This document shows, piece after piece, positions 25,785-32,014 of a stretch of DNA of 64,000 bases; positions within the stretch are counted from its first letter, which is position 1, and each line of letters opens with the position of its first letter. The stretch lies in assembly GCF_014764505.1 (NCBI RefSeq), contig NZ_JACXWX010000004.1, positions 62,001-126,000 on the forward strand, in the 5' to 3' direction. This DNA is from Phormidium tenue FACHB-886. GTDB taxonomy: Bacteria; Cyanobacteriota; Cyanobacteriia; Elainellales; Elainellaceae. The position numbers were made by a program, and so were the translations under genes. The notes beneath the pieces are model-generated. The model had not been told where the DNA came from and did not search any database. It saw nothing but the letters and a program-made list of their open reading frames with translations.

Positions 25785-27191
25785 ATGGTCACAGAAAAAT
25801 TTCGTCGCCAGCTCCGCCAAGAGTCCGAGCAATGGTGGGCTGAAGGGCTAATTGATGCTGAACTTTATCAACACCTCAGCGATCGCTACCAGTTCAGCCG
25901 CTTAGAGGCTGATGCTAGCAACCGCTTTATTGTCACTCTGATGGGGTTAGGCAGCGTTTTGCTGGGCTTAGCTGCTATCACGTTTGTAGCTGCCAACTGG
26001 CAGGCTTGGTCGCGCGACTTCAAGCTGCTGCTGCTCATTAGCTTGTTTATTGGCATTAATGCAGTTGGCTTTTATATGTGGCGTTTGCCCTCCCAGCGCG
26101 GCTACCAAAAGCTAGGGCATAGTTTGCTGCTGCTAGGTGCACTTGTTCTAGGAGCCAATCTGGGTTTGACATCGCAGATGTTCCATCACAGCGGCAGTTT
26201 TGCCGAGCTGCTATTGGTGTGGGGGTTGGGCGTTTTGGCAATGGCACACAGTTTGCGACTAGTATCGTTGGGTATTCTGTCGCTGATTCTGGTTAGCCTG
26301 GGCTATGCAATCAGCTGGGTCGATGGGTCCTTTAGCCAAGTACAAAGCAGTTGGCTGCAGCAGGCAGTCGAACATTTGCCGCTGCTGGTTAGCCTGCTTT
26401 ACATTCCGCTGGCACATCGCTGTCGCTCCCGCTCTATCTTTGGTCTTAGCGCTGTACTCATTGCGATTTCGCTGCCGTTCAGCTTAGCGATGGTGCGGGG
26501 GGTTAACCCGTGGGGAACTGGCGTATTGGCGGCAATCGCTCTTACTCTACCCGCTTCCCTGCTTTGGGTCTACCGCTTCAACTTCTGGTCTGCTCCCCGC
26601 GATCCTAACCCCGCCAGCGATTTGTTCCAGCCCATCTCCCAAGCGCTCGCGCTTTGTGGACTTGGATTTCTCTTTTCTGTAGCTGCCTTTCGTGGCTTTT
26701 GGGAGTCCTCTCTTAGCAGTAGTGCGACAGCGAGCATCCTGCCGCTGCATTGGTTGCCGCTCATTGATGCTGCTGTTCTGCTGGGCGTGGCCGGACTGGG
26801 ATGGTTTCAGCTCAGTCGGCAAAGACATCAAGCTGCAGCACAAGTGCTAAACAGCAGCGTAGTCGCAGGACTGATTGCGATCGCCACCGTGACTTTCGCA
26901 ATTCACGCTGAGATTACATCTATTTCCCTACCTGCCACAATTATCTTCAACGGATTATTGTTTGGACTGGCGATCGGCTTGATTCGAGATGGGTTAGCGC
27001 TGGGTGAGCGGCGACCTTTCTGGGGAGGCATGCTGCTGCTGGTGCTGGGAATTATCTGCCGGATGCTGGAATACGATACAGGCTTGCTGCTGAAGTCGGT
27101 TATTTTTGCGCTCTGCGGCATTGGGGTGATGGCAGCAGGGCTGTGGTTCGAGCAAAAAATTAAGCCCCGCCACCCCTCAGCTCAGAGCTAA
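25785..27191 (+). CDS. DUF2157 multi-pass membrane protein
   Basis: The 468-residue protein starts with a short cytoplasmic part containing the DUF2157 features SEQWWAEGLIDAELYQHLSDRY. It continues with about twelve hydrophobic helices, beginning with FIVTLMGLGSVLLGLAAITFVAANW near residue 48. The family is widespread and of unknown function. It is regularly followed by a GDYXXLXY-domain gene, as here with 22 bases between, so the two products probably act together in the membrane. Confidence 0.82.
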   Translation: MVTEKFRRQLRQESEQWWAEGLIDAELYQHLSDRYQFSRLEADASNRFIVTLMGLGSVLLGLAAITFVAANWQAWSRDFKLLLLISLFIGINAVGFYMWRLPSQRGYQKLGHSLLLLGALVLGANLGLTSQMFHHSGSFAELLLVWGLGVLAMAHSLRLVSLGILSLILVSLGYAISWVDGSFSQVQSSWLQQAVEHLPLLVSLLYIPLAHRCRSRSIFGLSAVLIAISLPFSLAMVRGVNPWGTGVLAAIALTLPASLLWVYRFNFWSAPRDPNPASDLFQPISQALALCGLGFLFSVAAFRGFWESSLSSSATASILPLHWLPLIDAAVLLGVAGLGWFQLSRQRHQAAAQVLNSSVVAGLIAIATVTFAIHAEITSISLPATIIFNGLLFGLAIGLIRDGLALGERRPFWGGMLLLVLGIICRMLEYDTGLLLKSVIFALCGIGVMAAGLWFEQKIKPRHPSAQS

Positions 27192-27213
27192 CCCCCATTC
27201 ACAGGAGACTCTC

Positions 27214-27873
27214 ATGACCCATTCTCTACCGCCCGAACTGCCGCCTCAGTCTAAAGTTTTAGCACCAGCCAATCGCGCTCCTCATCCTGCTACGCCAAAG
27301 CTTCCGGGCTGGCGGCTATGGCTACCGCTAGCACTTCAGACCGCGTTGATTTTGGCAATACCGACTCAGGCTGCCTATACGCTTTTTACGGGCAAAACGG
27401 TGACTTTGCAAACCCTGCCGATCGACCCCTATGACCTAGTGCGTGGCTACTCGCAGACGCTAAACTACGACATCTCCAGCCGCGCTACGCTGGAAACTCT
27501 GCCGGGCGGAGACTGGTTTACACAGCATGAGCTGCGAACCCCTGCCCGCTTCTATGTGATTTTGGCAGCGCCTACCCAAACTGCTACACCCCCCCAACCC
27601 TGGAAACCCGTTCGCATCAGCGGCGATCGTCCTACCCAGCTACCTGCCAACCAAATTGCTCTACAGGGGCAGTTCAACCGCAGCGGCATCACCTACGGGC
27701 TAGAAACGTACTATATGCCCGAAGACCAGCGGCAGCAAATTAATACTGAAATTAATCAAATTCAGCGGCAGGCAGCGAGGACACAATCTTTTGTGGTGGA
27801 TGTAAAGGTAGATGGAAACGGCAATGCGGTTCCGGTGAGTTTGTGGCTGCGCGATCGCAACTATCAGTTTTAA
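27214..27873 (+). CDS. GDYXXLXY-domain protein
   Basis: This 219-residue protein has one hydrophobic helix near residues 33-52 and then an extracytoplasmic domain. The segment TLPIDPYDLVRGYSQTLNYDIS contains a variant of the GDYxxLxY signature: the Gly-Asp of the motif reads Gly-Tyr-Ser here. A clear AGGAGA lies seven bases before the ATG. It is the second gene of the DUF2157 pair. The function is unknown. Confidence 0.78.
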   Translation: MTHSLPPELPPQSKVLAPANRAPHPATPKLPGWRLWLPLALQTALILAIPTQAAYTLFTGKTVTLQTLPIDPYDLVRGYSQTLNYDISSRATLETLPGGDWFTQHELRTPARFYVILAAPTQTATPPQPWKPVRISGDRPTQLPANQIALQGQFNRSGITYGLETYYMPEDQRQQINTEINQIQRQAARTQSFVVDVKVDGNGNAVPVSLWLRDRNYQF

Positions 27874-27889
27874 CCCAGGCGCTAGAGGA

Positions 27890-28387
27890 CTAGAAATCTT
27901 CTAGTAGGGGAGCCAACCGATCCAAAAGCGGATCGACTACTTCCTTTTCCTTCACTTCGGGTTCAGGCTTTGGTGAGGGCTGAGCTGGGCTATCATTGGG
28001 AGTTTCCAGCCGCATTAGCCGATCGGTTAGCTGCCGCACCTGCTGCTCCAGATATTCCTTGCGCTCCAAGCTAGCAAGGCGATCGCCCAGTTCTTTTACC
28101 TGCTGCTCTAGCCGCCGCAGGGCATAGCGCTGGCGAGCTTCTTCTTTGCCTTCGAGCCGAGCCATCTGCACTTGCAAATCGAGGATTTGCTGTTGTAGTG
28201 CAGCCGTTGGGGGGGCAAGCGCTGGCTCAGGCGGCTGCAAAAACTGCTGGAGGGCCTGCTTGCAGAAGTCGCTAAAGCCGATCGACTGCTCAGCCAACTT
28301 TTGCTCAACTGCGTTCAGCAGAATCTGGTCTGCCTCAGTAGCGGCAAACTTCACCATACGGCTAGTATCCTTGCGATCGCTCACCAT
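27890..28387 (-). CDS. ParR-like DNA-binding adaptor with coiled coil
   Basis: The 165-residue product begins MVSDRKDTSRMVKFAATEADQ, a likely ribbon-helix-helix strand. Helices follow (ILLNAVEQKLAEQSIGFSDFCKQALQQFL), the pattern of small ParR/RHH-type proteins. Residues 62-130 form a coiled coil rich in Q, L, E and R, and the end is acidic (LLDRLAPLLEDF). It lies 56 bases downstream of the ParM-like gene on the same strand, the same order as parM-parR in plasmid R1-type cassettes. A role as a DNA-to-filament adaptor is inferred from this context and not proven. Confidence 0.7.
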   Translation of the reverse strand: MVSDRKDTSRMVKFAATEADQILLNAVEQKLAEQSIGFSDFCKQALQQFLQPPEPALAPPTAALQQQILDLQVQMARLEGKEEARQRYALRRLEQQVKELGDRLASLERKEYLEQQVRQLTDRLMRLETPNDSPAQPSPKPEPEVKEKEVVDPLLDRLAPLLEDF

Positions 28388-28443
28388 TTGCTTGATTTGC
28401 TGAGAACGGAACAGGGCACAAACTCACAAATTGCAGGCTCGCT

Positions 28444-29508
28444 TTATGCTGTGGTGAGTTTATTCATCAATGCCACTAGCTGCGCCTCCCCATAGATGTG
28501 CTGACCTAGCGCGTTTGCTTGGCGGGAGGGTTTGGCAAGATGACCCTTGAGCCGGGCTTCTCGCAGCAGCGGGCGGAAATCATTCCAGAAGAATTCGCCA
28601 CCGCCGCCGCTAACGATGACATCAGTGACCCGCTCTGGCAACCAGGTGATAAGGCGATCGCTCAGCTCCCGTGCAAAGCTCTTGCGCAGGCTGGGCAGAA
28701 TGTCGTCTAAGTTAGTCGGCTTTGTTTCGCCACGGGGACGGTAGAAGCGCTCGCCCTCTGGCCGGTGAACTGTTTCGATCAGCGATAGGGATTGGCTGTC
28801 GGCTCCGGAAATTTGGGAAGCGACCTGTTCATAAAACTGGCTCATGGCAAAGGGTTCACTCTTGGATGCGCCTCTGGCAAACCGAAAGCGATCGATCATT
28901 AGGAAATCGGTGGTTTGGTGCCCGATGTCTACCACTGCCACAGAGAGATTGGGAAAATCAGGGCTAGCGGCTTTCTTTTCTTGCGCTTCGCACCAAATCA
29001 GGCTGCCAAAGCCTTCAGGCATCACCCAAACATTCTTAATTTCTACGGCGGCAAAATCGCCCCGGTAGCTCATCACATGAGGCGATCGCACCAGGCTAAT
29101 GATTTGCTCTTTTTCCCGGTCAAACTGCTCCTGCGAGTAGTAGGGCAAACCAACCACCAGCGAAGTTTCACCTTTGATCCCAAAGTAGCCCGCGCAGGCA
29201 AGCACTTTCACCAGCGCATCTTCTACTTTCGACTGCCCAACCCCCAAATTTGCACCAAAGTCAGCCGCGAGCTGCCCAATGGCAAACCCACGCCCCTGAA
29301 ACTCTAGCCAAATATCCATCAGCGGGTCAGTAGGCTGAGATTCAAAGCCGCCGCGCCGGACTTGCTCGACGGTTAGATGTGCCACGTTTGCCGGAATCAG
29401 CACAACCTTCTCTGGGTCGCGGCTAACACAGGCTTTGGTGGAAGTCCGCCCTAGATCGACACTGAGGATATTGAGCGGCAATGAATTAGCAGAAGATTTG
29501 CCAGCCAT
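28444..29508 (-). CDS. ParM/StbA-family actin-like ATPase
   Basis: The 354-residue protein has the actin-fold ATPase motifs in order: phosphate-1 loop LSVDLGRTSTKACVS near residue 14, phosphate-2 loop VVDIGHQTTDFLMID near 195, and adenosine motif VIVSGGGGEFFW near 300. The length is normal for ParM/Alp proteins. ParM filaments push plasmid copies apart when capped by ParR bound to the parC repeats. Here the gene lies among chromosomal housekeeping genes. It is read divergently from ftsH across 619 bases, and this gap contains clustered inverted and direct motifs (29674-29725). Confidence 0.87.
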   Translation of the reverse strand: MAGKSSANSLPLNILSVDLGRTSTKACVSRDPEKVVLIPANVAHLTVEQVRRGGFESQPTDPLMDIWLEFQGRGFAIGQLAADFGANLGVGQSKVEDALVKVLACAGYFGIKGETSLVVGLPYYSQEQFDREKEQIISLVRSPHVMSYRGDFAAVEIKNVWVMPEGFGSLIWCEAQEKKAASPDFPNLSVAVVDIGHQTTDFLMIDRFRFARGASKSEPFAMSQFYEQVASQISGADSQSLSLIETVHRPEGERFYRPRGETKPTNLDDILPSLRKSFARELSDRLITWLPERVTDVIVSGGGGEFFWNDFRPLLREARLKGHLAKPSRQANALGQHIYGEAQLVALMNKLTTA

Positions 29509-30127
29509 GATTTCTATACCTTCTTGAATAGGGGAACGTCAGACAGGAAGTTTAGTTATTGAGCAGGCGATCGACCCGGAGTAATCCTGGGTTACAGCTT
29601 TATAAGATCGATTTGATCAACAAGACTATACCTTAGACCCTGATTTTGCCAAAGTCCGATCAATCCACCTGTGTTGTACCACACGATTGGTTTAAGGTAG
29701 TACAAATGTTTAAGTGACTTTAAACTTCGTCAGAATGAAAGTTATTCAGGACAGCGGTAATAATGAGGGGGAGGCTTGAGCTTGGCTTGCTCTATGTGGG
29801 CTGGTTGCTCGAAATCCTGAAATTAAGTTAAATTTAGTTAAGATTCATTCTCAGCTTAGTAAAACTGTAGGCTCGGTTCACGCCTTCTACCGAAGGCTAG
29901 ATAAGAGTTAGGTGGATTAACTAGTTACTAAAAAATGAGAAGAGGATGCTGAGCAACCTGCGTAAAGCAAATTGCTCGGTGAATAAGCCCCTTCTTGAAA
30001 GTGAGTTTGATATTGGTTACAGCTTTAGCAGTTCTCCTTCTCTACTAATTCTCTTTTAAAGTTAGTAAGAACGGGTGAGCTGAATTTTAGATCGCTACTG
30101 TATCGGGTTTTAGGGGCGAATGGCGCT
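29509..30127. other. Divergent intergenic region, ParM-like gene / ftsH
   Basis: No gene is supported in 619 bases. It contains TTGTAC/GTACAA inverted half-sites (29674-29679, 29700-29705). GTTTAAG occurs at 29690-29696 and 29708-29714, with the opposite-sense CTTTAAAC at 29718-29725. An AT-rich stretch with TTAAGTTA and TTTAGTTAAG lies near 29822-29846. Promoters for both genes must lie here. Confidence 0.55.
29674..29725. promoter_or_regulatory. Candidate operator or centromere-like motif cluster upstream of ParM-like gene
   Basis: Within 52 bases lie TTGTAC and GTACAA as an inverted pair, two direct GTTTAAG copies 18 bases apart, and an opposite CTTTAAAC. Plasmid parC sites are arrays of short repeats next to parM bound by ParR, which also autoregulates. 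The match in position, about 165 bases upstream of the ParM-like start, is suggestive only. Confidence 0.4.
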
Positions 30128-32014
30128 ATGAAACTTTCCTGGAGAGTGGTTCTTCTTTGGACGTTGCCGATTTTGGTCGTCGGCTTTTTCTTTTGGCAGG
30201 GGGCGTTTTCTAGCGCTCCTGCCAGCACGGGCAGCAATACTGCCAGCACCCGCATGACCTACGGGCGGTTCTTAGACTATCTAGATCAACACCGCATCGT
30301 TAGTGTGGACTTGTTTGAAGGCGGACGGACGGCGATCGTCGAAGCGACCGATCCGGAGCTAGACAACCGGGTACAGCGGCTGCGAGTTGACCTGCCGGGT
30401 AACGCACCTGAGCTAATTACTCGTCTCCGGCAAGATAACATCAGCTTTGATGTCCATCCGCCCCGCAACGATGGCGCGATTTGGGGATTGCTAGGCAATT
30501 TGATCTTCCCAATTTTGTTGATTGGCGGCTTGTTCTTTTTGTTCCGTCGCTCCAACAATGTGCCGGGTGGTCCGGGTCAAGCAATGAATTTTGGCAAATC
30601 CAGGGCACGTTTCATGATGGAAGCCAAAACGGGCGTTCTGTTTGACGACGTGGCAGGGGTTGAAGAAGCCAAGGAAGAGCTGCAAGAAGTGGTCACCTTC
30701 CTCAAAAAGCCAGAGCGCTTCACCGCAGTCGGCGCTAAGATTCCCAAGGGCGTTCTGCTCGTCGGTCCCCCTGGAACCGGCAAAACCCTCCTGGCAAAAG
30801 CGATCGCCGGAGAAGCAGGTGTGCCATTCTTTAGCATCTCTGGCTCTGAGTTTGTAGAGATGTTTGTGGGCGTGGGAGCCTCGCGGGTGCGCGATCTATT
30901 CAAGAAGGCGAAGGAGAATGCCCCCTGCATCATCTTTATCGATGAAATTGATGCCGTGGGTCGGCAACGCGGCGCGGGCATCGGCGGTGGCAACGACGAG
31001 CGAGAGCAGACGCTGAACCAGCTCTTGACGGAGATGGACGGATTTGAGGGGAACACGGGCATCATCATCATCGCGGCGACGAACCGACCAGATGTGCTCG
31101 ACTCTGCCCTGCTGCGTCCGGGCCGCTTCGATCGCCAGGTCACCGTTGATGCGCCTGATATCAAAGGACGGCTGGAAGTCCTACAGGTCCATGCCCGCAA
31201 CAAAAAACTAGCTCCAGACATTTCGCTGGAGGCGATCGCCCGCCGTACTCCGGGCTTCACAGGCGCTGATTTGGCAAACCTGCTAAACGAAGCCGCTATT
31301 CTCACCGCTCGTCGGCGCAAAGAAGCGGTCACAATGCTAGAGATTGACGATGCCGTCGATCGCGTGGTGGCTGGCATGGAAGGTACACCGCTGGTAGATA
31401 GCAAGAGCAAGCGACTGATCGCCTATCACGAAATTGGCCATGCGATTGTCGGAACGCTGGTAAAAGACCATGACCCCGTTCAAAAAGTGACGCTGGTTCC
31501 TAGAGGACAGGCGCAGGGTCTTACCTGGTTTACGCCTAGTGAGGATCAGGGTTTGATCTCGCGTGCTCAGCTTTTAGCAAGAATTTCGGGCGCTTTGGGC
31601 GGTCGGGCGGCTGAACAAGAAATTTTTGGCGATGCCGAGGTAACAACTGGGGCAGGCGGCGACTTGCAGCAGGTCAGCGGCATGGCGCGGCAGATGGTGA
31701 CTCGCTTCGGCATGTCTGATTTGGGTCCGCTGTCGCTGGAGAGCCAGCAGGGTGAGGTCTTCTTGGGACGCGACTGGACAACCCGTTCAGAATATTCCGA
31801 AGAAATCTCCTCACGCATCGATGCTCAAGTCCGCTCGATTGTGGAACACTGCTACAACGTGTCGCTGAAGATTGTCCGCGACAACCGGGAAGTGATCGAT
31901 CGCTTGGTCGACCTGCTGATCGAGAAGGAAACGATCGACGGGGAAGAGTTCCGTCAGATCGTGGCAGAGTACACAGTCGTTCCTGAAAAAGAGCAATTTG
32001 TACCAAAAATCTAA
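30128..32014 (+). CDS. ftsH: ATP-dependent zinc metalloprotease FtsH (FtsH2-type)
   Basis: This 628-residue membrane protease has two N-terminal transmembrane helices (about 7-23 and 120-139) flanking a lumenal domain. The AAA domain has Walker A GPPGTGKT at 213-220 and Walker B FIDEID around 270-275. The zinc protease domain carries HEIGH at 434-438; the usual sequence is HExxH. The N-terminus [25 protein letters not shown] and the C-terminus resemble Synechocystis FtsH2 (slr0228), which with FtsH3 degrades damaged photosystem II D1 protein in the thylakoid. The paralogue assignment is by recollection. A terminator follows the stop. Confidence 0.95.

Follow-up and report, generated by a model that had tools for sequence, protein, structure and literature searches.

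The closest described system to the gene pair analyzed here is FcmB-FcmC of Nostoc punctiforme, in which cells deleted for either fcmB or fcmC become wide and round, FcmB filaments encircle the cell at the membrane, and these filaments are cytoplasmic when FcmC is missing (PMC12645912). FcmB and FcmC interact, neither interacts with MreB, MreC, or MreD, and DAPI staining of the deletion strains showed the nucleoid without obvious change (PMC12645912). The FcmB family was derived by the same authors from a plasmid partition actin (PMC12645912). CorM is known from PDB entry 9rmi, "Cryo-EM structure of the CorM filament in the presence of CorR from cyanobacterium Anabaena sp. PCC 7120." Here, we report that a cassette in the window (the whole 64,000-nucleotide stretch of DNA analyzed) is very probably a chromosomal FcmBC (CorM/CorR) system, that is, a ParM-ParR pair of plasmid origin that has been domesticated into a cytoskeleton bound to the membrane.

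Both open frames lie on the minus strand, with fcmC downstream of fcmB after a gap of 56 bases, which confirms the parM-parR gene order described in the first-pass annotation.

28444..29508, minus strand: fcmB/corM, ParM-derived actin-like ATPase, 354 aa, ATG start (NCBIfam FcmB NF052678; PDB 9rmi)
27890..28387, minus strand: fcmC/corR-type adaptor, ParR-derived, 165 aa, ATG start (NCBIfam FcmC NF052682; adjoins fcmB in nearly all loci)
29509..30127, no strand: fcmB/ftsH divergent intergenic region, with two-copy chance-level repeats only and a 22-base AT-rich tract

The setting of the pair is chromosomal, and its neighbors are the ordinary chromosomal genes that had been named, with ftsH (gene call at 30128) divergent from fcmB and a DUF2157/GDYXXLXY pair (25785-27873; gene calls and Pfam) on the other flank. 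In several families, many species have a divergent ftsH adjoining fcmB (46 loci, some genomes counted twice), and this conserved neighborhood marks the site as an old chromosomal one. The two genes stand back to back across one common intergenic region in many species; a shared control region is possible.

The window actin matched NCBIfam NF052678 ("filament morphology actin-like protein FcmB") with 642.8 bits (cutoff, 300), Pfam ALP_N (9e-16) and MreB-like_C (8e-7), and the PHROG "partition protein" (3e-35). Among PDB sequences, the only strong match was to 9rmi chain G, "CorM" (E, 5e-156). The structure that AlphaFold2 predicted from 24 orthologs (pLDDT, 87) had a full actin fold and matched 9rmi_A by fold (E, 4e-50; TM, 0.86; 67% identity), followed by Alp7A, pSK41 ParM, and R1 ParM at 14 to 18% identity; ParM, Alp7A, and AlfA were matched at E 1e-11 or better. 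Passing the FcmB model while matching CorM of 9rmi makes FcmB and CorM two names for one family. The PHROG match and the fold matches to plasmid actins likewise agree with the ParM/ParR-like ancestry proposed earlier. The nucleotide site comprises three motifs.

29434..29457, minus strand: phosphate-1 motif DLGRTSTK, residues 18 to 25 (D18, L19, G20, R21, T22, and K25 invariant in 24 orthologs)
28906..28929, minus strand: phosphate-2 motif DIGHQTTD, residues 194 to 201 (D194, I195, G196, H197, Q198, T199, and D201 invariant in 24 orthologs)
28597..28608, minus strand: adenosine motif GGGG, residues 301 to 304 (G301 to G303 invariant in 24 orthologs)

These are the motifs by which the protein had first been recognized as an actin-like ATPase; they are nearly all invariant in the aligned orthologs, Pfam and PHROG concur, and the actin nucleotide site of window FcmB reads as intact. 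The window genome gave a single match to the FcmB model, hence no second ParM of the FcmB kind, and carries a separate mreB (491.6 bits). The closest named holders of FcmB are of the Leptolyngbyales/Oculatellaceae type (Drouetiella, Elainella), and a phage search returned only Bacillus phage G (23%).

The adaptor passed its own model narrowly (NCBIfam NF052682, 93.9 bits; cutoff, 90), which we counted against the cell-shape reading. Its AlphaFold2 monomer model (mean pLDDT, 81) has helices at residues 18-34, 38-50, 61-128, and 153-162, and the N-terminal strand, read from sequence, is extended in the model.

28238..28363, minus strand: ribbon-helix-helix-like N-terminal region of FcmC, residues 9 to 50 (conserved pattern in 23 orthologs; AlphaFold2 helices 18-34 and 38-50; RHH_1 E 0.0033 in a Gloeomargarita-type ortholog)
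28004..28207, minus strand: coiled coil of FcmC, residues 61 to 128 (single AlphaFold2 helix, mean pLDDT mostly >90; length varies between species)
27893..27934, minus strand: C-terminal helix motif DPLLxRLxxLLEDF of FcmC (D152, P153, R157, L158, and F165 invariant in 23 orthologs; AlphaFold2 helix 153-162)

Across 23 orthologs, FcmC is conserved at both ends, with VxF..ADQxLL...FSxLCKxAL at the N terminus (V12, F14, F38, S39, C42, K43, and L46 invariant) and the DPLLxRLxxLLEDF tail; the coiled coil between them is very variable, and ortholog lengths range from 126 to 447 aa. The strand of a ribbon-helix-helix monomer forms only in the dimer. The element order of FcmC is that of such a monomer, and we predict a ribbon-helix-helix start with moderate confidence. 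The match to Pfam RHH_1 (CopG-type) came from one Gloeomargarita-type ortholog, slightly below the model's cutoff; Pfam gave no RHH match in window FcmC itself, and a profile of the N-terminal region returned a chance match only among PDB sequences. A PDB sequence search for FcmC/CorR found no solved CorR chain. Searching the PDB by Foldseek with the FcmC model turned up nothing useful (best E, 5.5), a null not counted as refutation because a 165-residue monomer made up largely of coiled coil is badly suited to finding an obligate-dimer fold. Structure prediction, proposed in the first-pass annotation for a small protein described as having a likely ribbon-helix-helix start and a coiled coil, bore out the coiled coil (helix 61-128) and gave the two helices that follow the sequence-read strand. 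Gloeomargarita-type FcmC (L118, 1082-1636, and others) has two strand-helix-helix copies per chain, possibly a single-chain ribbon-helix-helix dimer.

In R1 ParR, ParM is bound by the C-terminal peptide (PDB 4a62), and by this analogy the C-terminal helix of FcmC probably contacts FcmB. Window FcmC starts without the aromatic-basic residues (MFQW, MLWEKN) common among orthologs of other families, a point against the cell-shape reading as regards the membrane contact of this FcmC.

Operon autoregulation is common among ParR proteins. A dual role, in which the adaptor of a cell-shape cytoskeleton still contacts DNA by way of its ribbon-helix-helix region and might, for instance, regulate its own operon, would fit the conservation of that region with its seven invariant residues and its duplication within one chain in Gloeomargarita-type FcmC. 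We consider it unlikely, however: the ribbon-helix-helix fold serves as a dimerization unit too, and no operator-like repeat array was found upstream in the window.

The cassette had first been annotated as a partition cassette of the ParM/ParR type. That descent stands, and the likely job does not: both proteins pass cell-morphology models, the nearest structure is CorM, no iteron or parC-like array was found within 29400-30140 or 27860-28460, Tandem Repeats Finder over 27500-30200 detected no centromere-like repeat array, and orthologs have a shape phenotype (PMC12645912). A working partition cassette was dropped as the main reading, given both curated models and the lack of iterons in the flanks searched. 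A working ParMRC, with ParR on centromere repeats and ParM filaments pushing apart chromosome copies or a resident element, shares with the pair its plasmid-type ParM descent (the PHROG match and the fold matches to Alp7A, pSK41 ParM, and R1 ParM), the gene order, and a predicted ribbon-helix-helix-like N terminus in the small protein, yet it is very improbable in view of searched flanks without parC-like repeats, two proteins within cell-shape families, orthologs whose loss gives round cells with no visible nucleoid defect, and ordinary chromosomal genes on both sides. Among the cargoes first considered, the one without any relation to DNA fits the likely answer, namely cell shape, with no visible effect on ortholog nucleoids (PMC12645912).

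Under the preferred reading as a membrane-bound cytoskeleton, we infer by analogy that the pair would work in the window organism as in Nostoc punctiforme. FcmB would polymerize with ATP into filaments, and FcmC, as an oligomer combining a ribbon-helix-helix-type N terminus, a coiled coil, and the conserved C-terminal helix, would bind FcmB and recruit its filaments to the cytosolic side of the cytoplasmic membrane. There they would encircle the cell and maintain its rod shape, and they may set cell width by guiding wall synthesis or by constricting.

Conservation of the pair, for which a co-occurrence search had been suggested, was evident among 60 relatives of the window genome: FcmC was present in all 27 with strong FcmB versus 1 of the 33 without (Fisher P, about 3e-16), a pairing far beyond chance. 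Across 390 genomes of the class, 92 exceeded the FcmB cutoff, and a sharp score gap separated intact FcmB (>300 bits) from ordinary ParM relatives (≤73 bits); scores between 73 and 300 bits belonged to truncated or broken fcmB copies. Broken or frameshifted fcmB (L101 [G317:C108], L024/L065, and L027 [G034:C173]) may be pseudogenes or assembly errors.

FcmB was above the cutoff in 8/8 genomes of one small-genome family (f17; 2.1 to 3.2 Mb), each with adjoining FcmC (loci L118, L119, L120, and L122 to L129 in G069, G095, G082, G105, G125, G115, G134, and G051). In G069, urea carboxylase is present and urease absent, a rare combination reported for Gloeomargarita lithophora Alchichica-D10 (PMC6737895), and by this fingerprint the family includes Gloeomargarita lithophora (G069). 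FcmB has been called absent from unicellular strains (PMC12645912); FcmBC in unicellular Gloeomargarita-type genomes, as identified by the fingerprint, goes beyond that published distribution. In the FcmB tree (built quickly, with a very long branch to the outgroup and an uncertain root), G051, of the same genus as G069, branches first, and G105, from the family's other genus, follows slightly later. Gloeomargarita are the closest cyanobacterial relatives of plastids. If Gloeomargarita truly has the pair, the link between FcmBC acquisition and filamentous growth needs revising, and the role of the pair becomes testable in a single-celled rod.

On four elements from Nostocales, of which three are named plasmids, FcmB (56 to 62% identity to the window protein) forms the C-terminal part of a frame of 508 to 633 residues, whose N terminus is a glycine-rich membrane segment followed by a coiled coil. 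The carriers are Nostoc sp. N6 pNPM2, Dolichospermum sp. UHCC 0315A pUHCC0315c, Trichormus variabilis ATCC 29413 plasmid A, and a 142-kb contig of G143.

L084, 3515-5041: FcmB fusion frame
L085, 3146-5047: FcmB fusion frame
L086, 3518-5047: FcmB fusion frame
L100, 3832-5361: FcmB fusion frame

No FcmC was found beside the four fusions, the phosphate-2 motif is changed in two (DIGHQNIN in L084 and DIGYESTN in L086), and the three plasmid records annotate the fusion too short, as ParM/StbA. The tree nests all four inside Nostocales chromosomal FcmB, which makes chromosome-to-plasmid transfer the likelier direction. Plasmid FcmB relatives (56 to 59% identity) as ancestors were dropped as a candidate, the plasmid copies falling within the Nostocales chromosomal clade. 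The membrane/coiled-coil module (L110 to L117; L084, L086, and L100) is also joined to other C-terminal parts, including a dynamin-like GTPase by motif (L111), a zinc-ribbon-like tail (L112), and a longer unrelated tail (L113). In L084, L086, and L100, the gene ahead of the FcmB fusion encodes 336 residues and has a weak HNH-type match. The plasmid fusions are a natural test of whether membrane attachment alone is the adaptor's main job.

The window pair belongs, as an ordinary member, to a family whose description dates from 2025-2026; it adds one more genome to the case of a DNA-sorting machine turned cell-shape cytoskeleton, and the comparison results weigh more than the window. FcmBC is likely older and wider than "filamentous only," with a first-branching copy in unicellular Gloeomargarita and a rod-shape cytoskeleton that may be prefilamentous, and it is likely also back on mobile DNA as anchor-fused FcmB without neighboring FcmC.

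Compared with known systems, the window resembles FcmB-FcmC of Nostoc punctiforme (Npun_R4472/Npun_R4471; PMC12645912) in gene order, family models, chromosomal site, and ATP site, and differs from it in an FcmC that lacks the aromatic-basic N terminus and in nearest named FcmB holders of the Leptolyngbyales/Oculatellaceae type. Against CorM-CorR of Anabaena sp. PCC 7120 (PDB 9rmi), the whole actin agrees at 67% identity and a TM of 0.86. The plasmid systems (ParM-ParR-parC of R1 and pSK41, AlfA, and Alp7A) are alike in actin fold, parM-parR order, and a predicted ribbon-helix-helix-like partner with a C-terminal helix, whereas their actins share 14 to 18% identity with window FcmB, no centromere repeats were found beside the window pair, and the function of the FcmB family is cell shape. 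MreB, like FcmB, is an actin-family cytoskeleton required for rod shape, but it is separate from FcmB, with its own gene in the window genome and a negative two-hybrid result for FcmB-MreB binding (PMC12645912).
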